Of a stretch of 64,000 bases of DNA, positions 37,976 through 62,256 are shown one piece after another. The stretch covers positions 4,907,501 through 4,971,500 of the forward strand of contig NZ_LT629762.1 in NCBI RefSeq assembly GCF_900105155.1, read 5' to 3'. A program made the translations under genes and the position numbers. The stretch is from Pseudomonas prosekii. Its GTDB lineage: Bacteria > Pseudomonadota > Gammaproteobacteria > Pseudomonadales > Pseudomonadaceae. The notes beneath the pieces were generated by a model. The model saw only the letters and a program-made list of their open reading frames with translations, was not told where the DNA came from and did no database searches. Each line of letters starts with the position of its first letter. Within the stretch, counting starts at the first letter, position 1.

Positions 37976-38129
37976 TCTCATTGGTGAATGGCAGCGCTTT
38001 CGAGCCGCGCCATAACAGCATTCCCAAGCCTTGCGCGGTCGGCGAAGACCGCGTCCTGCACGCCATTTTTTGCGCGTGACCAGCGAAAACCGATTCCAAC
38101 TTGCAAGCCGAATTCAGGCAGGAAACCTC

Positions 38130-51125
<12,996 letters not shown>

Positions 51126-52230: not shown

Positions 52231-53001
52231 TTACTTGGGTCCGAGGATTTTCTGCAATTTGTCCGGCGACGGCGCGCCTTGCTGTTGCTGCAATTCGCCC
52301 TTGTCGTCCATGTAGAAAATCGCCGGGGTTGCTTGCAACTCAAGGTCGTCCATCAATTGCATGTTCGCCGCGAGTTTTGCCTGGATCGCCGGTGGCACGT
52401 CTTTCAAGGCCTTGAGCTTGCTTTGCTTGCCAGCCTTTTCGTGATCGGCCAACGCCTGGCTTGGGTCTTTGGCGGCGAGCAGCGCGGCGGATTTCGCCGG
52501 GCTGTCTTCGCGGATGATCCCGACCATAATGTGCCGCAACTGCACCTTGCCGGAATCGACCCACGGCCGCGCCTGTTCCCAGAACATGTTGCAGTAAGGG
52601 CAGTTCGGGTCGCTGAACAAGTAAACGATGCGCGGCGCATCCTTTTTGCCGTCGGCGATCCAGTTGCTCGCTTCCATCTTGCCCCAGACTTCCTTGGACA
52701 TTGGCGCGTAGACCAGCTTCTGCAACGGCGCGCTGCTCAGGTCATTGCCGTCGGCGTCGTACAGGTTGCCGAGCAGCACGTGTTTGCCATCGGGCGTCAG
52801 GTACAGCGCCATGCCGCGGTTCTGATACTGCGCGGCGTAACCGCGCAAACCGTCCGGTGCATCGAACTGGCCGACGATTTTTGCACCTTTGGCTTCAATC
52901 TTCTTGATCGCCTCGGGCAGTTCTTCGGCGGCCTGCACCGCCGGCAGGTGCAGCAGCGCAGCACCCAGAGTCAGGGTCAGCAGATGGCGGAGGCGGGGCA
53001 T
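52231..53001 (-). CDS. dsbG: Periplasmic thiol:disulfide isomerase DsbG
   Basis: 256 residues. Signal peptide (LLTLTLGAALLHLPAVQAAE), N-terminal dimerisation region, then a thioredoxin fold with the active site CPYC in FSDPNCPYCNMF and the cis-Pro in LELQATPAIFYMD. DsbG protects single cysteines and reshuffles disulfides; it is kept reduced by DsbD, encoded two genes upstream. Its 5' end overlaps dsbE by 25 bases, so the dsbD-dsbE-dsbG genes are one operon, matching P. aeruginosa dsbDEG. Confidence 0.93.
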   Translation of the reverse strand: MPRLRHLLTLTLGAALLHLPAVQAAEELPEAIKKIEAKGAKIVGQFDAPDGLRGYAAQYQNRGMALYLTPDGKHVLLGNLYDADGNDLSSAPLQKLVYAPMSKEVWGKMEASNWIADGKKDAPRIVYLFSDPNCPYCNMFWEQARPWVDSGKVQLRHIMVGIIREDSPAKSAALLAAKDPSQALADHEKAGKQSKLKALKDVPPAIQAKLAANMQLMDDLELQATPAIFYMDDKGELQQQQGAPSPDKLQKILGPK

Positions 53002-53861
53002 GGCAGTTTCCTTGCAGAGGTGGTCGATGTGGCCGAGGTGGCAGGAGTGGCGGCGGTGGGCGTGTCGAAATTTTCCAGCGCGCGGGCCAGGCTGGCTTCC
53101 GACAACTCGCCCAGATGGCTGGTCAGCAGACGGCCGTCATTGCTATAGAACAGCGTAGTCGGCAATGCCATCGAACCGACGGCCTGACCCAAGCGTCCGC
53201 CGCGATCAAACAACACGTTGGACAGGCTCAAGCCCTGGGTTTCCAGGTAAGTGCTGACGCTTTGCATGCTTTCGGCCTGGTTGACGAACAGGAAGGTCAG
53301 GTCCGGGCGCTGATGCTGGGCGTTTTCCAGCACCGGCATTTCCCGGCGACACGGCGGACACCAAGTCGCCCAGAGATTGATCACCAACGGGCCTCCTTGA
53401 TAGTCGCTGAGTTTGACGTTCTCGCCAGCAGCATTGACCAACGTGACGTCCGGCAGGCGCGTGCCTTGCTCGTAAATGGTCAGGGAGAAGGTTGCCAGCA
53501 ACCAGAACAGCAGGCCGCTGCCAGCGCCAAAACCCAGTGGCCGACGCAAACCTGGCCGTCGCCAGCCGCGATACAGCGCCGCCAGCAACAGCACGATCAC
53601 CCCCGGCCAGGCGAGGAAACCGCCATCGCGCAGATCGATGATCTGCCAAGGATCGTTGCGGTAATGCGCCCAATAGGCGATCACGAAACTCACCCGCGCC
53701 GCCAACATGCCCAGCAGGAACAGGCTGAACAGCGCCGACTCGGGGTTCTCGCCGCCGCGCTTGGCCACCCGCCAACCGACGAAAGTCGCCAGCGCCAGGG
53801 CACTGATCAGCAGCAGGTGGTTAAGCGCAATGGCAAAGGTGCCGAGGGTAAAAGTCAGCAT
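52977..53861 (-). CDS. dsbE: TlpA/DsbE-type membrane thioredoxin
   Basis: 294 residues from the ATG at 53861. The N-terminal 130 residues carry about four membrane helices (FAIALNHLLLISALALATFVGW; LFSLFLLGMLAARVSFVIAYW) with an Lgt-like pattern. A TlpA-family thioredoxin domain follows with the active site CPPC in INLWATWCPPCRREMP and the cis-Pro in SMALPTTLF. The C-terminal tail (TPTAATPATSATSTTSA) is low-complexity Thr/Ala/Ser and absent from most homologues. The ATG shares a base with the dsbD stop (TAATG). It should pass electrons between DsbD and periplasmic partners. Confidence 0.9.
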   Translation of the reverse strand: MLTFTLGTFAIALNHLLLISALALATFVGWRVAKRGGENPESALFSLFLLGMLAARVSFVIAYWAHYRNDPWQIIDLRDGGFLAWPGVIVLLLAALYRGWRRPGLRRPLGFGAGSGLLFWLLATFSLTIYEQGTRLPDVTLVNAAGENVKLSDYQGGPLVINLWATWCPPCRREMPVLENAQHQRPDLTFLFVNQAESMQSVSTYLETQGLSLSNVLFDRGGRLGQAVGSMALPTTLFYSNDGRLLTSHLGELSEASLARALENFDTPTAATPATSATSTTSARKLPCPASAIC

Positions 53862-55597
53862 TAATGAGCATCTCGGGTGGTGGTCCAGCGTTGCAGGAAA
53901 GTCTGCGCATCGACTTCGCCGGTGATGCGCTGGCTGCGGCGTTCGACACCATCGGCGCCGATCCACAGCAGGCTCGGTGGCCCCGGCACTTTATAGCGGC
54001 CGAGCAGTTCGCGGCTGGCGGCATTGTCGGCGGTGACGTCCAGCCGTAGCAAGCGCACATCTTTCAACGCGTCCAATACCTGCGGTTTGCCGAACACCTG
54101 TTTTTCCATGACCTTGCACGCTACGCACCAATCGGCGTAGTAATCCAGCAGCACCCATTGACCCTGAGCCTGCGCCGCATCGAGCTCGTTTTGCAGGGCG
54201 GCAGGGTTGTTGACCGTGGTGAAGGCGTCGTGGCCGACCGGGTTGGCGGCGTTGCCGGAAGCGGACGCGGTATACACCTGCAACGGTTTGAACAGGTCAT
54301 CGCTGCCGCCCGCCGCACCGATCACCGCCAAACTGCCCCACAGACCGAGCAACAGCGCGCTGGCGCCGAACAGTTGAGCGACCCGGCCGAAACCCTCCGA
54401 CTGTTTCCAGGCGCTGTATGCGGCGATCAACAACAATGCGCCACACAGACCGAGCCACAGCGATTGATCCAGCACCGGGCGCAACATGAACAGCGCGGTG
54501 GCGAGGAACAGAAAACCGAACACGCCTTTGAGCAGATTCATCCACGCGCCGGGTTTGGGCAGGAAACGGTTGCCGACAGTCACCAGCAACAGCAGCGGAA
54601 TGCCCATGCCAATGCCCATGGCAAACAGGATCAGCCCGCCGTGCACGGCATTGCCGCTCTGCGCGATATACAGCAGCGCGCCGGCAAGTGGCGCGGTCAT
54701 GCACGGCCCGACCAGCAGCCCCGACAACGCGCCGAGCACGCCGGCGCCGATCAGGCTGCCACCGCTTTGCTGGCGCGAGGCGTGTTCCAGCCGATCGCGC
54801 AACGCCACGGGTAATTGCAATTCGAAGAAGCCAAACATCGGCAACGCCAGCAGCACGAATACCGCTGCGAAACTGCCGAGCAACCAAGGGTTTTGCAGGA
54901 GCGCCTGAAGATTGCCACCCAACAATGCCGCCAACACGCCCAGCGCCGCGTACACCAACGCCATGCAAATCACGTAACTGCTGGCCAACGCGAAACCGCG
55001 TTTGGGCGAGGCGCCGCTGCCGACGATCAGTCCAGCGAGAATCGGCAACATCGGCAACGTGCACGGCGTGAACGCCAGCAACAGACCGAGGCCGAAGAAC
55101 ACCAGCAAACTCCAGCTCAACGCGCGTTGTTGCAGGTTGCTGGCCAGCGCTTGATCCGGTGCCTGCGTGGCGGCAATCGTCGCCGCCGCGCCACCGAGAT
55201 CAATGACCTGGGTTTGCGGCGGATAACACAGGCCGGCATCGGCGCAGCCCTGGAAACCCACTTTGATCTGACCCGTCGCCCCGGCAGGAATTTTCAATTC
55301 CAGGCCTTGGCGATAAACCGGCTGTTCGCCGAAAAATTCATCACTGTGCGACTCGCCTTGCGGCAACACCGGCAGGTGCTCGGGTGCCAGGCCATCGAAT
55401 TTCAGACGTTTCTGATACAGGTAATAACCGTCGGCGATCTGCCAATACAGCTGCATTTCCCCCGAATCGAGGCGCTCGGAAGTAAAAACAAAGGCCTTTT
55501 CGACCGGCAGGAACTCGGGTTTGCTCTCGAACGGATTTGAGCCTGCGTGGGCGAAACCCGAGAGCAGGAGCATAAAGAGCAGCAAAAATCGACGCAT
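53861..55597 (-). CDS. dsbD: Transmembrane thiol:disulfide interchange protein DsbD
   Basis: 578 residues: signal peptide (FLLLFMLLLSGFAHAG), nDsbD alpha domain with the cysteine pair in VGFQGCADAGLCYPPQ, an eight-helix beta domain with FTPCTLPM and VGPCMTAPL, and a C-terminal thioredoxin domain with WCVACKVMEKQ. All six redox cysteines are visible. It carries electrons from cytosolic thioredoxin to periplasmic DsbG and TlpA. The ATG at 55597 matches the signal peptide. A direct hexamer repeat 47-63 bp upstream is a candidate DsbR site. Confidence 0.95.
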   Translation of the reverse strand: MRRFLLLFMLLLSGFAHAGSNPFESKPEFLPVEKAFVFTSERLDSGEMQLYWQIADGYYLYQKRLKFDGLAPEHLPVLPQGESHSDEFFGEQPVYRQGLELKIPAGATGQIKVGFQGCADAGLCYPPQTQVIDLGGAAATIAATQAPDQALASNLQQRALSWSLLVFFGLGLLLAFTPCTLPMLPILAGLIVGSGASPKRGFALASSYVICMALVYAALGVLAALLGGNLQALLQNPWLLGSFAAVFVLLALPMFGFFELQLPVALRDRLEHASRQQSGGSLIGAGVLGALSGLLVGPCMTAPLAGALLYIAQSGNAVHGGLILFAMGIGMGIPLLLLVTVGNRFLPKPGAWMNLLKGVFGFLFLATALFMLRPVLDQSLWLGLCGALLLIAAYSAWKQSEGFGRVAQLFGASALLLGLWGSLAVIGAAGGSDDLFKPLQVYTASASGNAANPVGHDAFTTVNNPAALQNELDAAQAQGQWVLLDYYADWCVACKVMEKQVFGKPQVLDALKDVRLLRLDVTADNAASRELLGRYKVPGPPSLLWIGADGVERRSQRITGEVDAQTFLQRWTTTRDAH

Positions 55598-55643
55598 GAG
55601 CCATCCGGTGCCGTTACAAGTGAGAGGCACGATGCTGGCCGAC

Positions 55644-55660
55644 GATTAACCGGTGATTAA
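55644..55660 (-). promoter_or_regulatory. Candidate DsbR box upstream of dsbD (TTAATC-N5-TTAATC)
   Basis: On the minus strand, TTAATC-N5-TTAATC is a perfect direct hexamer repeat with an 11-bp period, the spacing used by OmpR/PmrA-type regulators. It is 47 bp upstream of dsbD. A half-conserved copy occurs upstream of dsbR. Confidence 0.6.
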
Positions 55661-55735
55661 TAGAAAGTTGCCGGACTGAATGAACAGCCCGGCAAACACG
55701 CATAACGCGCAAGTCAGCGATGAGTCATCGCCGGT

Positions 55736-56677
55736 TCAGATGCCGTGATAGGTCAGGCGGTTCTCCGACAGCGGCGGGTGTGTGTCCTTCCAGGTCTGCG
55801 CAAAACCCAGCGCCAGGTCGATTTCTTTTTGACTCATTTCCTTGCCGAGGTCGGCGAGAAAAACTGAGGCGCTGTTGTGGAGTTGGTATTCGGTCGCCGA
55901 GTTGACCACCAGCCAGATAAGGCCATAGCTGAACGGATAACTCTTCGCGTAGCCGTATTCGGGGTCACGCCCGTCGCTATCGTGGCCGAGGGCATAGCCG
56001 TATTTGAGGACACCGTAGAGGTCATTCAGCGCAGCGGTCTTTTCCAGCCATTCGCGTCGCAGCGACGGGAATTGCGTCACTTGCGGGCGGTTGGTGTACC
56101 AGTTCATGGCGAGCGGGAAGTTGGCCGCAGCGCCCATTTGCAGCAGCCGGTCTATCGCCTCTGATGGTGTCTGGCCGGTCGGGACCAGGCTGTTATCCCG
56201 GTCGTACTCCAGCGCCAGAATGTACAAGGCTTCCGGGAATTTCTTGCCTGCCGATTTCTTCAGCCAGGTGATGTCCTTGGTCAGCTCGTACATCTGCAGC
56301 ATGGCCTCGCCGTCACCCTGTGCGATGCGCGGCGGCAGCAGTTGCCGGGCTTTGTCCAGCGACGCACTGTCGCCCAGACGCAGCAGGGCGTAGACATCCT
56401 CTTGCGCGGCGGCCAGCCGATACCATTTTTTCGCGTCTTCGGTGATGGAACCCTGCTGGCGCCGCAGCACTTCAGCCAAAGCATATTGCGCCGCCCGGTC
56501 GCCGCCTGCGGCGGCAATGTTCAAGTAAGGCTCCGACGCCCGGAAGCTGCCGAGGTTGTAGAGTTCGAGGCCTTTGTTGCGGGCATTTTCCTGTAGCACG
56601 TTCAATTCGGCGATTAGCGCGGTCAGGCTTTTGAGCATATTGAAAAAAGCGGTCAAGTCATCTGTGTGCGGTTGCAT
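55736..56677 (-). CDS. Sel1-like repeat protein
   Basis: 313 residues from the ATG at 56677, no signal peptide or membrane segment. Helical repeats of the Sel1/TPR type are visible: [61 protein letters not shown] and IDRLLQMGAAANFPLAMNWY. Such proteins are protein-binding scaffolds and often accompany secretion or toxin-immunity genes. It lies 99 bp downstream of the hemopexin-like gene on the same strand and may be its partner. It interrupts the otherwise neighbouring dsbD and dsbR units. Confidence 0.85.
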   Translation of the reverse strand: MQPHTDDLTAFFNMLKSLTALIAELNVLQENARNKGLELYNLGSFRASEPYLNIAAAGGDRAAQYALAEVLRRQQGSITEDAKKWYRLAAAQEDVYALLRLGDSASLDKARQLLPPRIAQGDGEAMLQMYELTKDITWLKKSAGKKFPEALYILALEYDRDNSLVPTGQTPSEAIDRLLQMGAAANFPLAMNWYTNRPQVTQFPSLRREWLEKTAALNDLYGVLKYGYALGHDSDGRDPEYGYAKSYPFSYGLIWLVVNSATEYQLHNSASVFLADLGKEMSQKEIDLALGFAQTWKDTHPPLSENRLTYHGI

Positions 56678-56776
56678 GATCAATCCCTTCGTGTGAGTTG
56701 AGTAAGCTCCCATTCAGGGTATGGGCTGATGAAACGTCAGGTGCGGTACATATTTATCGCATTGCCAGCGGATTGC

Positions 56777-57478
56777 TCAGTTGCGCAATAAACCGGGCCA
56801 GGATACCTCGTCGACAATAATCGGCCCGGCTAACAGTCTGTTGGTCGGAATGTTGTAGCGCAGGTATTCATTGTTGGTCAGGAAAATATAGTAATGGCTG
56901 TAAGCAAATGTTCGATCATTTTGTACGGCGGTCATAATCCGGTCTTTATAAGGTGCCAGTCCTGGCCAGGTACTATCGTTGATAGGTTCATGCGTCAACT
57001 TATCGGTCACAAGGTTGAGCGATAAACTGTGGCCGTCGTTCATCAGGAAACGGAAAAAGCGCGGATTAGGCGACTTTTCCCACCAAGTGCCAGCAACGAT
57101 GCGGTCGAAGTAGGGCAGCAGCGTATGCCAGATGGATTGACTGACAGGATAGGAGTTGGTGGCGACGTCATCGTCCTGGTCATACCTGCAGACCATCGGA
57201 ATGCCGCCGTCATAATAGAAAAGCCACAAAATATCCGAATCAAAATCCAATGGGTGAGCGGGGTTGATGCCGGTGGTGGTAAATCCGAATCGCAAATCTT
57301 TCAGTTTTGAATGGACGGTGTTCCAGTTGCTCGAGCGGATAGCAGTTGGATAACCTTCAGGTACTTCGTTATCGGCAAGATTAAAACGCGAGTAGGTGTT
57401 GGTGTCTTTGAAAAAGAAATAGCAGCGATCTGCTCCCGAGCGCCAGTCAACGGCGACGACGTTATTTAAAGTTTGCAT
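56777..57478 (-). CDS. Hemopexin-like four-repeat protein
   Basis: 233 residues with no signal peptide. Four imperfect repeats of about 50 residues are each built around an aromatic 'blade' motif: CYFFFKDTNTYSRFNL with EGYPTAI; ILWLFYYDGGIPMVCRYD with SIWHTLLPYFDRI; FFRFLMNDGHSLSLNL with STWPGLAPYKDRI; YYIFLTNNEYLRYNI with VSWPGLLRN. Four such repeats make one complete hemopexin beta-propeller. The coding region is clearly AT-richer than its neighbours (23/60 and 24/60 GC in two lines counted by hand), indicating recent transfer. Bacterial proteins of this type include Photorhabdus photopexins; ligand and function are unknown here. Confidence 0.82.
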   Translation of the reverse strand: MQTLNNVVAVDWRSGADRCYFFFKDTNTYSRFNLADNEVPEGYPTAIRSSNWNTVHSKLKDLRFGFTTTGINPAHPLDFDSDILWLFYYDGGIPMVCRYDQDDDVATNSYPVSQSIWHTLLPYFDRIVAGTWWEKSPNPRFFRFLMNDGHSLSLNLVTDKLTHEPINDSTWPGLAPYKDRIMTAVQNDRTFAYSHYYIFLTNNEYLRYNIPTNRLLAGPIIVDEVSWPGLLRN

Positions 57479-57716
57479 GTTTGATCCTTGGAAAGTTACA
57501 GGGCGTGTACAGTTTTATTAATTTGATGTGCGGTTGAATGGCGAGACTATTGGGTTGTTTTACGAATTTATAGTTGCGATGTATTGAACTTTGTTTCTGG
57601 GTTCGCTGCTGTTGGTTGACAAGTGCTGGTGAAGTAAATTTGTTTGCGTTGCGCGTTTTTGCAGTTCAAGTCCGATGGATCGCAGCCGCCGGACACCGAT
57701 CAGTTGTGGCCCTGAC

Positions 57717-57733
57717 ATAATTGCGGCTTAATC
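57717..57733 (+). promoter_or_regulatory. Candidate DsbR box upstream of dsbR (ATAATT-N5-TTAATC)
   Basis: ATAATT-N5-TTAATC has the same N5 spacing as the perfect repeat ahead of dsbD, with four of six bases kept in the first half. It ends 43 bp upstream of the dsbR ATG, compatible with autoregulation. Confidence 0.45.
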
Positions 57734-57776
57734 CTTCTCTGTTTGACTCGCCTTTTTTTCGGCTCAGGGAGCTCCC

Positions 57777-58457
57777 ATGCACGTACTGGTTTGCGAAGAC
57801 GATGAGCTGATCGCCAGCGGCATCGTTGCCGGTCTCACCGCGCAAGGCTTGACCGTCGAGCACGTCGCTACCGCGTCGTCGGCGCGGGCGATGCTCAAGG
57901 TCGCGGAGTTCGATGTGATGGTGCTCGACCTGGGCCTGCCGGACGAAGACGGCCTCAAACTGCTGCAGCAACTGCGCCACAATGGCCTCGAGTTGCCGGT
58001 GCTGATCCTCACTGCGCGCGACTCGGTCACCGACCGCGTTGACGGTTTGCAGGCCGGCGCCGATGACTACCTGCTCAAACCGTTCGACCTGCGCGAACTC
58101 GCCGCGCGTCTGCACACGTTGCTGCGGCGCGTGGCCGGGCGCAGCGTCAACCTGATCGAACATGGCGCCCTGACTTACGACCCGAGCAGCCGAGAAACCC
58201 TGCTCGGCGGCAAGTCGATTGACCTGTCGCGCCGCGAGCAGGCGCTGCTGCAAGCGCTGTTGCACAACCGTGGCCGGGTGCTCTCGACCGAGCAGTTGAA
58301 GGACAGCGTCTACGGCTTCAATGACGAACTGGAAAGCAACGCGCTCAACGTGCATATCCATCACCTGCGACGCAAGCTCGGCAACGGCATCGTCGAAACG
58401 GTGCGCGGTCTGGGTTATCGCCTCGGGCCTGCGGATGGCGGAGATCAACCGAAGTGA
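57777..58457 (+). CDS. dsbR: OmpR-family response regulator DsbR
   Basis: 226 residues: receiver with LVCEDDELIASG, acceptor Asp in VMVLDLGLPDEDG and Lys in LLKPFDLREL, then a winged-helix DNA-binding domain (LSRREQALLQALLHNRGRVLS; NVHIHHLRRKLG; VRGLGYRL). In P. aeruginosa the homologous pair DsbR-DsbS is adjacent to and regulates dsbDEG; here the pair is in the same orientation but separated from dsbD by two accessory genes. The stop overlaps the kinase start. Naming rests on gene order and family. Confidence 0.85.
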   Translation: MHVLVCEDDELIASGIVAGLTAQGLTVEHVATASSARAMLKVAEFDVMVLDLGLPDEDGLKLLQQLRHNGLELPVLILTARDSVTDRVDGLQAGADDYLLKPFDLRELAARLHTLLRRVAGRSVNLIEHGALTYDPSSRETLLGGKSIDLSRREQALLQALLHNRGRVLSTEQLKDSVYGFNDELESNALNVHIHHLRRKLGNGIVETVRGLGYRLGPADGGDQPK

Positions 58458-59779
58458 TGAGCCTGCGTTTGCGTCTGAGCCTGACCCTCGGCGCCGCTTT
58501 TGCGCTGATCTGGGCGCTGGCAGCAGCCTGGATGCTCAGCGACCTGCGTAACCAGATGATGTTTTCCCTAGACCAGCGCCTGGTCGCCTCGGCACGCATG
58601 GTCGCCGGGCTGATGGAGCAATTGCCGAAGTTGCCGACCAAGGGCGAAGGCACGCATTTCAGCGCTGAACAATTGAACGTCCCAGGTGGCATGGCCTGTC
58701 AGGTCAGTTCCCTGCGTGGGGAAATCCTCGCGCGCAGCCACACCGATCCGCAACAAACCCTCGAAGCCGAGAAGATGGGTTTCCACGATCAGATCATCGA
58801 CGGCGCGCCGTGGCGCAGTTTCACTCTGGCGCGCGGCGATTTGCGCATCACCACGGCGGATCGGCAAATCGAGCGAGAAGCCCTGAACATGTCAATCCTG
58901 CTGGCCGCGTCGGTGCCGGTCGGCGTCGCATTGCTCGGTTGCCTGTGCCTGTTGTGGCTGGGCATCGGCCAAGGCTTGGCGCCGCTCAATCGCATGCGCG
59001 ACGCCCTGATGCGCCGCAGCGCCGATTCTCTTGAACCGTTGCAGATCCAGCCATTGCCCAGCGAATTGCAACCGTTGCTCGACACGCAGAATCAGTTGTT
59101 CCAGCGCATCGGCAAGACCATCGAGCGCGAGCGACGCCTGACCGGTGACGCCGCCCATGAACTGCGCAGCCCGCTGACCGCGATCAAAACTCACCTGCAA
59201 GTGGCGCGCATGACTGACGGCGCGGCGCGCGATCAATCGTTGGCGCGGGCCGAAGAGGGCGCCGACCGTTTGCACCGCACGCTGGAGCAATTGCTGTTGC
59301 TGGCGCGGGTCGAGGGCAGTTTGTCGTTTGATGACGGCGTGCAATGCAGCGCCGAGCAAGTGGCGAAACTGGCGATTCAGGATGCCGGCAGCGGCGATCG
59401 CCACCGTATCAAGTTTCAGTTGCCGAGCACGCTTTCCGCCGCGCCGGTGCAAATGCCGGCGGTGCTGTCGATTGCCGCGCTGCGCAATCTGCTCGACAAC
59501 GCTTTGCGCCATACGCCGGGCGACGGCGCCGTGGAGCTGAGCCTGGAAACCACCGGCAGCCATGTGCGGTTTGTGGTCCGCGACCATGGGGCAGGGATTG
59601 CTGAAGAAAATCTGCAGCACCTGACCCAACGTTTCTGGCGCGACGGCCAGAGCACCGGTTGCGGCTTGGGCCTGGCGATTGTGCAGGCGATTGTTCAGCG
59701 CTGTGCCTGCACGTTGCACTTCGACAGTCGCCCGGATGGCTTGCGCGTCGAACTGACCATGCCGTTGCAAGCGATCTGA
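58454..59779 (+). CDS. dsbS: Sensor histidine kinase DsbS
   Basis: 441 residues from the GTG at 58454 (an ATG follows at 58457). Two membrane helices (ALIWALAAAWML and ILLAASVPVGVALLGCLCLLWLG) bracket a small periplasmic sensor of about 120 residues, then HAMP-like, HisKA (GDAAHELRSPLTAIKTHLQ) and HATPase (NLLDNALRHTP; GCGLGLAIVQAI). The periplasmic part has a single cysteine, residue 82 by the GTG numbering, in GGMACQVSS. P. aeruginosa DsbS is reported to sense copper through a periplasmic cysteine; that this Cys is the equivalent is inference. Confidence 0.87.
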   Translation: MMSLRLRLSLTLGAAFALIWALAAAWMLSDLRNQMMFSLDQRLVASARMVAGLMEQLPKLPTKGEGTHFSAEQLNVPGGMACQVSSLRGEILARSHTDPQQTLEAEKMGFHDQIIDGAPWRSFTLARGDLRITTADRQIEREALNMSILLAASVPVGVALLGCLCLLWLGIGQGLAPLNRMRDALMRRSADSLEPLQIQPLPSELQPLLDTQNQLFQRIGKTIERERRLTGDAAHELRSPLTAIKTHLQVARMTDGAARDQSLARAEEGADRLHRTLEQLLLLARVEGSLSFDDGVQCSAEQVAKLAIQDAGSGDRHRIKFQLPSTLSAAPVQMPAVLSIAALRNLLDNALRHTPGDGAVELSLETTGSHVRFVVRDHGAGIAEENLQHLTQRFWRDGQSTGCGLGLAIVQAIVQRCACTLHFDSRPDGLRVELTMPLQAI

Positions 59780-60407: not shown

Positions 60408-60431
60408 TAAATCCTCAAGCCTCTGATGCGT
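60408..60431 (+). promoter_or_regulatory. PvdS-dependent promoter of pvdH
   Basis: TAAAT at 60408-60412 and CGT at 60429-60431 with exactly 16 bases between. It begins 17 bp after the acetyltransferase stop and ends 102 bp upstream of the pvdH ATG. Confidence 0.87.
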
Positions 60432-60533
60432 TTCCAGAACAGGAAAACCTGCAAGTGCGCCCCGTCACCGGAACGCGCGCCTGCCCGGTGTGCAGTTTTG
60501 GTCACTATTCACAGCGTATTGAGGGGTCGAGAG

Positions 60534-61946
60534 ATGTCAGTCGCTACCAGCCTTATCGAAGATCAGCCGGCCCGGGTTGCCCCGACGCCTGCCGAGACGC
60601 TTTACCAGTTCAACGAATCGCCATTGCTGGCTCGGCAAAACCAGCAGGAATCGAACGCTCGCAGCTACCCTCGACGGATTCCGCTGGCACTCAAACGCGC
60701 CAAGGGCATTTATGTCGAAGACGTCGAGGGCCGCCGTTTCATCGATTGCCTGGCGGGCGCCGGCACGCTGGCGTTGGGGCACAACCATGCGGTGGTGATC
60801 GAGGCGATCCAGCAAGTGCTCAGCGATGAACTGCCGCTGCACACCCTCGACCTGACCACCCCGGTCAAGGATCAATTCGTTCAGGACCTGTTCGGCCTGC
60901 TGCCGCCAGCCTTGGCCGCCGAGGCGAAAATCCAGTTCTGCGGACCGACCGGCACCGACGCCGTCGAAGCCGCGTTGAAACTGGTGCGCACCGCCACCGG
61001 ACGCAGCACGGTGTTGTCGTTCCAGGGCGGTTATCACGGCATGAGCCAGGGCGCATTGAGCCTGATGGGCAGCCTGGGGCCGAAAAAGCCGTTGGGCGCG
61101 TTGCTCAGCAGCGGCGTGCAGTTCATGCCCTATCCCTACGATTACCGTTGCCCGTTCGGCCTCGGTGGCGCGCAAGGGGTGCAGGTCAACCTCAATTACC
61201 TGGAAAACCTGCTCAACGATCCCGAGGCCGGCGTGCAATTGCCGGCGGCGGTGATCGTCGAAGTGGTGCAGGGCGAGGGCGGCGTGATTCCGGCGGACCT
61301 CGACTGGTTGCGCGGCTTGCGCCGTATCACCGAGCAGGCTGGCGTAGCGCTGATCGTCGATGAAATCCAGAGCGGCTTCGCCCGCACCGGCAAGATGTTT
61401 GCCTTCGAGCACGCCGGGATCATTCCTGATGTCGTGGTGCTGTCCAAAGCCATCGGCGGCAGTTTGCCGCTGGCGGTGGTGGTTTATCGCGACTGGCTCG
61501 ACACTTGGCTGCCGGGCGCACACGCCGGCACGTTCCGTGGCAATCAGATGGCCATGGCTGCCGGTTCGGCGGTGATGCGTTACCTCAAGGACAACAACGT
61601 CTGCGAACACGCCGCCGCCATGGGTGAACGCTTGAGCGAACACCTGCGCATCCTGCAGCGCGACTTCCCGCAATTGGGCGACATTCGTGGTCGCGGTTTG
61701 ATGCTCGGCGTCGAGTTGGTCGACCCGACCGGCGCGCCCGATGTGCAGGGTCATCCGCCAGCGTTCGGCCGTCTGGCGCCGCTGGTGCAGCGTGAATGCC
61801 TGAAGCGTGGCTTGATCCTCGAACTCGGCGGCCGGCATGGCGCGGTGGTGCGGTTCCTGCCGCCGCTGGTGATTACCGCTGCTGAAATCGACCGCGTCGC
61901 CGAGATATTCGGCCGTGCCTTGGTCGCAGCGACCGCCGGCCTGTAA
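60534..61946 (+). CDS. pvdH: L-2,4-diaminobutyrate:2-oxoglutarate aminotransferase PvdH
   Basis: 470 residues, the length of P. aeruginosa PvdH. Class III PLP aminotransferase: [48 protein letters not shown] and the PLP lysine in [12 protein letters not shown]. It makes L-2,4-diaminobutyrate from aspartate semialdehyde, the residue loaded by the third module of PvdL. The ATG at 60534 is preceded by GAGGGG. A perfect PvdS box lies upstream, and a second one for mbtH overlaps its stop codon. Confidence 0.94.
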
Positions 61947-61967
61947 ATTTTCCGATGGCCTGAACGT
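61944..61967 (+). promoter_or_regulatory. PvdS-dependent promoter of mbtH, overlapping the pvdH stop
   Basis: TAAAT (61944-61948)-N16-CGT (61965-61967), a perfect box. The first three bases of TAAAT are the pvdH stop codon TAA. It is 61 bp upstream of the mbtH ATG. Confidence 0.82.
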
Positions 61968-62028
61968 TCTTTCTACATACCGGCTGCGCATGCCGCGCAG
62001 CCCACCCCTACAGCGATGGAGACACACC

Positions 62029-62256
62029 ATGACGTCAGTATTCGACCGCGAGGACATCCTTTTTCAGGTCGTGGTCAACCATGAAGAGCAGTACTCGATC
62101 TGGCCCGACTACAAAGCCGTGCCACAAGGCTGGCGCACCGTGGGCAAGAGTGGTCTGAAAAAGGAGTGCCTGGCTTACATCGAAGAAACCTGGACCGACA
62201 TGCGCCCGCTGAGCTTGCGCCAGAAGATGGACGAGCAAGCGGCTTTGACTCACTAA
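62029..62256 (+). CDS. MbtH-like protein of the pyoverdine cluster
   Basis: 75 residues, complete MbtH family: [24 protein letters not shown] and [22 protein letters not shown] residues, with the invariant SIWP and W..D.RP motifs. MbtH-like proteins bind and activate NRPS adenylation domains, here those of PvdL and its partners. The ATG at 62029 is preceded by GGAG. It has its own PvdS promoter and an intrinsic terminator downstream, so it can be expressed with or apart from pvdH. Confidence 0.94.

Follow-up and report, generated by a model that had tools for sequence, protein, structure and literature searches.

Accessory-gene hotspots lie between conserved genes, and their content is exchanged by homologous recombination in the flanks. 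In the 64,000-nucleotide stretch of Pseudomonas prosekii analysed here (the window; G000:C1:4907501-4971500 of a 6.09-Mb genome), the region between the stress-response genes dsbD and dsbR contains two additional genes, one for a Sel1-like repeat protein (sel) and one for a hemopexin-like protein (hpx). The closest described loci are the DsbRS-dsbDEG loci of P. aeruginosa and of P. fluorescens SBW25, which have the same core genes as the window. DsbRS is copper-responsive in P. aeruginosa, as stated in passages of PMC10141476. In SBW25, unlike in the window, dsbR and dsbD are neighbours, and the main text of PMC13101516 mentions hemopexin or Sel1 zero times; it does report a small-colony intergenic mutation 49 bp upstream of dsbD, which its authors assigned to a predicted DsbR site. 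In P. fluorescens-type pseudomonads, the short stretch between dsbD and dsbR is probably an accessory-gene slot in which cassettes are exchanged, with hpx having a role and a promoter of its own. It resembles known hotspots in that the core neighbours stay the same while a small cargo varies, in its patchy distribution and in flanks that tend to diverge, but differs from them in that the cargo is very small and is set between two regulator-type boxes, neither of which is broken.

Occurrence and architecture of the dsbD-dsbR slot

A search of 398 Pseudomonas genomes for hpx, the Sel1-like protein and dsbR gave matches in 50, 69 (many of them distant paralogues) and all 398 (not all orthologues), respectively. 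One hundred stretches were fetched, 94 of which contain dsbR; the other six hold one weak hpx match (G245) and five Sel1-like genes located elsewhere. Together with the window, the resulting 95 loci comprise 46 with hpx, three with hpx and sel, seven with sel and 39 with neither. The hpx-negative sample consists of 40 genomes taken from the dsbR match list, at a dsbR identity of about 90% or higher. In 39 of these the slot is empty: counted from the first dsbD residue in the alignment, the gap measures 111-226 bp and includes two direct-repeat boxes, and tblastn at E 1e-6 detected no hpx or sel remnant; the empty sites anticipated by the initial annotation of the window thus exist. In the remaining genome, G344, the slot is occupied by a distant Sel1-like gene, and the same holds for G256 according to the match listings. 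The same annotation had reasoned that a widespread arrangement would be ancestral; since hpx together with sel occurs in 3 of the 398 genomes, and hpx in 50, the arrangement is not common.

The slot contents observed are hpx, sel, both, tandem hpx and none. Two copies of hpx are present in G053, G328 and G105 and three in G376, and the gene is broken in G151 and G300; the hpx of G355, listed as two pieces, is one open frame. In the loci read, two gene families supply the cargo, which comprises one to three genes, hpx and/or sel are the only matches within the slot, and the dsbD-dsbR gaps are at most 2.9 kb, which leaves no room for an integrase gene beside the cargo. Among the 398 genomes hpx adjoins dsbRS in 49 of the 50 matches, and in the named set it adjoins dsbR in all 60 loci, six of which also have sel. 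The slot does not reflect one recent insertion; the slot hpx proteins are only 39-73% identical to that of the window and, judging from dN/dS (the ratio of nonsynonymous to synonymous substitution rates), evolve under purifying selection. The earlier proposal of an insertion into the shared promoter region survives in part: the genes are accessory and lie between the two boxes, but the content has changed many times, and the net picture is of a recurrently used slot.

Empty sites carry GATTAACCGATGATTAA or a near-identical sequence adjoining dsbD and an ATAAT-N5-CTTAATC-type box adjoining dsbR; the distance between the boxes is 33-55 bp in 38 of the 39 empty loci and 93 bp in L172. This two-box pattern matched in 139 of the 398 genomes, the filled G029 among them, and in none with the reversed control. 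In all 56 filled loci read, the extra genes lie between a dsbD-side box (D-box, 10-12 of 12 positions, 56/56) and a dsbR-side box (R-box, 10-11 of 12, 56/56). Read in the direction of its own gene, each box is a direct repeat with 11-bp spacing, as is expected for an OmpR-family regulator, and both are predicted DsbR sites. Their position is constant in relatives, which shows that they are not chance matches. Furthermore, the D-box of the window begins 47 bp upstream of what is likely the dsbD start codon, an inner ATG near 55597, in agreement with the SBW25 mutation at 49 bp. The exact pattern GATTAA-N5-GATTAA occurs twice in the genome (reversed control pattern, 0); its second copy, at L255, was dropped as a lead to the DsbR regulon, as the surrounding open reading frames (ORFs) look flagellar, which is our assumption.

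In the window, the ORF coordinates bear out the earlier description of a split of about 2 kb with two minus-strand genes (2.1 kb between dsbD and dsbR), and the two candidate regulator sites then proposed, at 55644-55660 and 57717-57733, coincide with the boxes:

52231-53001, minus strand: dsbG, ORF with an NCBIfam match above cut-off
52977-53966, minus strand: dsbE, ORF below the NCBIfam cut-off, named from gene order and the published locus
53861-55630, minus strand: dsbD, NCBIfam match above cut-off; left border of the slot, with dsbE and dsbG downstream
55644-55660, minus strand: D-box GATTAACCGGTGATTAA (plus-strand letters), predicted DsbR site of dsbDEG
55661-55738, minus strand: stem-loop stretch from the Sel1-like gene to the D-box, terminator-like with a weak T run
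55736-56677, minus strand: Sel1-like repeat protein, 313 amino acids from an inner ATG; open frame to 56713
56777-57478, minus strand: hpx, 233 amino acids, predicted four-bladed hemopexin-type propeller
57479-57776, no strand: AT-rich hpx-dsbR spacer, comprising the hpx upstream region and the dsbR leader
57717-57733, plus strand: R-box ATAATTGCGGCTTAATC, predicted DsbR site for dsbRS; leader of the type usual at hpx loci
57777-58457, plus strand: dsbR, ORF with a response-regulator domain; right border of the slot, with dsbS
58454-59779, plus strand: dsbS, ORF with a kinase domain

Among the matches listed, dsbR and dsbS reached no NCBIfam cut-off, and these two, like dsbE, therefore take their names from gene order and the published locus. 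The inner ATG is probably the start of the Sel1-like gene, because its six nearest homologues all have 313 amino acids. The GC content is 60.6% in the window, 61.5% in dsbD, 59.2% in sel, 48.7% in hpx, 46.0% in the hpx-dsbR spacer and 64.2% in dsbR; the hemopexin-like gene had been described as AT-rich, which holds for hpx and its leader, whereas sel hardly differs from the window.

Probable exchange of slot content among relatives

On quick trees of the flanking genes themselves, with support from the SH-like approximate likelihood ratio test (SH-aLRT) only, the four slot states need 24 changes (dsbDEG DNA) and 26 changes (dsbR), where the least possible is 3 and the shuffled mean 38. The starred branches of the dsbDEG tree force at least 16 changes for hpx and at least 18 for the empty state, and the three hpx+sel loci cluster with a support of 97. 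The slot is a hotspot in that its content has changed repeatedly at one site between core genes. In G029, the dsbD side of the insert retains the double box and leader of an empty site, intact up to the would-be dsbR start, followed by hpx, a second R-box and dsbR, as if the insert had entered next to an empty site that was left whole. L098 and L130 have 95.6% identical dsbR DNA and first hpx proteins that are only 59% identical, a contrast that suggests a cassette swap. In addition, the dsbR leader is linked to the slot state, with TAAT following the R-box in 37/39 empty, 2/49 hpx and 4/7 sel loci. L172 is empty yet has an hpx-type leader, and may be the scar of a loss.

The flanks were compared in 109 locus pairs with a distal region at least 91% identical (38 filled/empty, 14 empty/empty and 57 filled/filled), and they tend to diverge where the slot state differs. 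Mean identity in the first two 150-bp bins of dsbD is 81-82% in filled/empty pairs versus 88-91% in the two same-state groups, and in the next two bins 87 and 83 versus 89-91; from the fifth bin on, the groups agree within about 2.5 points. Identity in the first 300 bp of dsbD lags that of the distal region by more than 5 points in 29 of the 38 filled/empty pairs and in 17 of the 71 same-state pairs. The effect in the dsbR 5' flank is small (1.6 points), and no label permutation out of 1000 reached the dsbD or dsbR difference, the permutation being crude and the pairs non-independent (the 38 filled/empty pairs were drawn from 37 loci).

From the trees, G029, the flanks and the leader linkage taken together, we infer that cassettes are exchanged by flanking homologous recombination, with additional losses. 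A cassette of hpx, a Sel1-like gene or both lies between the two DsbR-type boxes, oriented like dsbDEG, so that each core promoter retains its own box. Cassettes would be gained, lost and swapped, most likely through the 5' ends of dsbD and dsbR, and an hpx cassette would bring a different dsbR leader along. Reading the junction sequences by eye revealed no junction repeats, no search with a repeat tool having been made, and flank recombination is the better-supported route. The slot shows how added genes can settle in a divergent regulated promoter region with both control sites unbroken, and related genomes with and without the insert form natural pairs for testing the box spacing of a response regulator.

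Several points weigh against cassette exchange. Only 40 hpx-negative genomes were read, with dsbR identities from about 90% upwards, the locus pairs are non-independent and the label permutation is crude. Nine of the 38 filled/empty pairs lack a dsbD dip of more than 5 points; the three closest, L131, L136 and L122 versus the empty L185, are 90-95% identical in the first 300 bp of dsbD. The 17 same-state pairs that also dip (L140/L144, for example) and the small dsbR 5' effect point the same way. Furthermore, change counts cannot separate gain from loss, the trees are quick ones built from the flanking genes themselves, and the confinement of hpx to the slot could mean functional coupling.

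Expression of the cassette and the hpx protein

No third box is conserved upstream of hpx or sel in the 56 filled loci, where the best scores are 6-10 of 12; scores of at least 8 occur in 41 of the 56 loci and in 46% of mononucleotide shuffles, so that the excess is slight, and the position is not fixed. Neither gene thus has a conserved DsbR-type box at its own promoter that would mark a member of the DsbR regulon, and the copper/thiol-stress control of the inserted genes suggested by the initial annotation is not supported. Since a conserved third box is missing, hpx is probably expressed from its own promoter and not from a DsbR box. In the region upstream of hpx, examined for a conserved promoter element, two conspicuous stretches are one resembling a Shine-Dalgarno sequence and one with GAAACA. 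Both hpx and sel are oriented like dsbDEG, towards dsbD. The stem-loop at 55661-55738 has a folding energy of -36.4 kcal/mol (z -5.8 versus mononucleotide shuffles), and the corresponding stem-loops of the two further hpx+sel loci, likewise located from sel to the D-box, have z of -5.1 and -4.9. Just 7 of the 56 filled loci have a stem-loop with z below -2; most of them may therefore allow read-through into dsbDEG.

The hpx protein is predicted to be a four-bladed hemopexin-type propeller, which supports its earlier hemopexin-like label even though the window protein has no Pfam match, PF00045 included, at E up to 1. Of eight relatives scanned, five matched PF00045, all below its gathering cut-off (best 20.6 versus 21.3 bits). 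The fold match comes from structural re-alignment and not from Foldseek's own PDB ranking, in which WD40 and designed propellers came first with low TM-scores; among the 50 matches listed from a viral structure library, only loose propeller matches appeared (TM-score at most 0.45). The closest folds are the plant PA2-type seed albumins (ranks 1-4; DC25 6ix1, CP4 3oyo, LS24 3lp9), and hpx, like them, is predicted to be a stand-alone propeller of some 230 amino acids. Its identity to these albumins is 15-18% in structure alignments, with no PA2 chain among its six profile matches, and by hand alignment it has no cysteine counterpart of Cys21, described for DC25 in the text of PMC6934871. The photopexins of Photorhabdus are likewise bacterial hemopexin-type proteins, but are described in the text of PMC2422844 as fusions of a PA-IIL domain with a pair of HX domains, whereas hpx is a lone propeller. 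Two double-length hpx relatives, P0183 and P0184 (476 and 478 amino acids), are probably two fused units, and P0184 has a precomputed PF00045. In G245, the C-terminal part of a 558-amino-acid ORF away from the slot (L145, 3037-4713) weakly matches hpx and may be a hemopexin domain in a fusion.

As phage or plasmid cargo hpx was rejected, with 0 matches in 50,697 phage records and, in 72,556 plasmid records, three distant ones of 26-29% identity (two in Pseudoalteromonas, one in Nostoc), the surroundings of two of which are uninformative. Defence-system models gave 0 matches for hpx or the Sel1-like protein at E up to 1, and no paper on the slot genes was found among those listed by an open-access library. 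By inspection hpx has no signal peptide, and a cysteine (C97) is present in 48 of 52 hpx proteins. With a predicted fold and computed purifying selection, hpx most likely represents a soluble protein of the cytosol that has a hemopexin fold and whose conserved role in the cell may be, for example, the binding of a small ligand, and it defines a bacterial hemopexin-fold family so far almost confined to one locus.

Alternative explanations and Sel1-like paralogues

An ancestral dsb locus that included hpx (and sel), followed by many losses and little lateral transfer, would explain why hpx is diverse, constrained and almost confined to one position, why L172 combines an empty slot with an hpx-type leader and a wider box spacing, features expected of a loss scar, and why the three closest filled/empty pairs are still 90-95% identical at the start of dsbD (first 300 bp). 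This reading is nevertheless unlikely, given the intact empty-site sequence next to the insert of G029, the greater divergence of most filled/empty pairs near the slot than farther off, the L098/L130 contrast and the absence of hpx or sel remnants (tblastn, E 1e-6) from 39 of the 40 hpx-negative loci. A place for hpx and sel in a DsbR copper/thiol-stress regulon, working with DsbDEG in envelope repair, would fit the near-constant adjacency of hpx to dsbRS, its dsbDEG-like direction, the widespread C97, the scarcity of strong stem-loops that would stop read-through and the copper response noted in PMC10141476. The lack of a conserved third box makes this rather improbable. In addition, C97, as we read it, replaces the Trp of the usual blade motif and may thus be structural, and neither hpx nor the Sel1-like protein has a signal peptide by inspection, whereas the Dsb partners act in the periplasm.

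We consider about equally improbable a regulatory allele switch, in which a unit cassette would add hpx, replace the dsbR leader (with TAAT as a -10-like element) and split the boxes by 1-2.9 kb; genomes would then alternate between controlling envelope thiol repair in a coupled and in an uncoupled manner, and hpx would act as a matched cytosolic binder of heme or a redox ligand. That hpx-sel is a pair of toxin (or effector) and immunity protein is far less plausible still, even though more distant Sel1-like relatives form arrays, one of which, in this genome, has five members with signal-like N-termini behind VgrG, DUF4123 and LysM proteins. The two slot genes mostly occur apart, with 46 of the 49 hpx loci (54 of 60 in the named set) lacking sel and seven of the ten slot sel genes lacking hpx; Pfam reveals no toxin domain in hpx, whose fold matches hemopexin-type propellers. 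Nor does an effector gene adjoin sel, as would be expected of a type VI secretion system (T6SS) immunity gene, since nothing in the slot other than hpx and/or sel gave a match. From the Sel1-repeat proteins LpnE (6deh), LceB (8sxq) and c5321 (4bwr) the slot protein differs in that inspection shows no signal peptide and that no partner gene was found for it.

The array (L191 8042-18912; G000:C1, about 5815000-5826000) has its five tandem Sel1-like genes behind a 1198-amino-acid LysM protein, a DUF4123 protein and VgrG, and is a probable T6SS effector locus with several immunity genes; the signal-like N-termini of its paralogues were assigned by inspection. Slot-type Sel1-like genes also occur alone at other loci (L146-L150), near ORFs that we take to be flagellar or antiporter/cysS-like. 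Elsewhere in the window, 38031-51125 and 60426-62256 contain a nonribosomal peptide synthetase-like gene for 4364 amino acids that begins like an acyl-AMP ligase, together with an ORF resembling an aminotransferase and a small one resembling MbtH, which suggest a pyoverdine locus.
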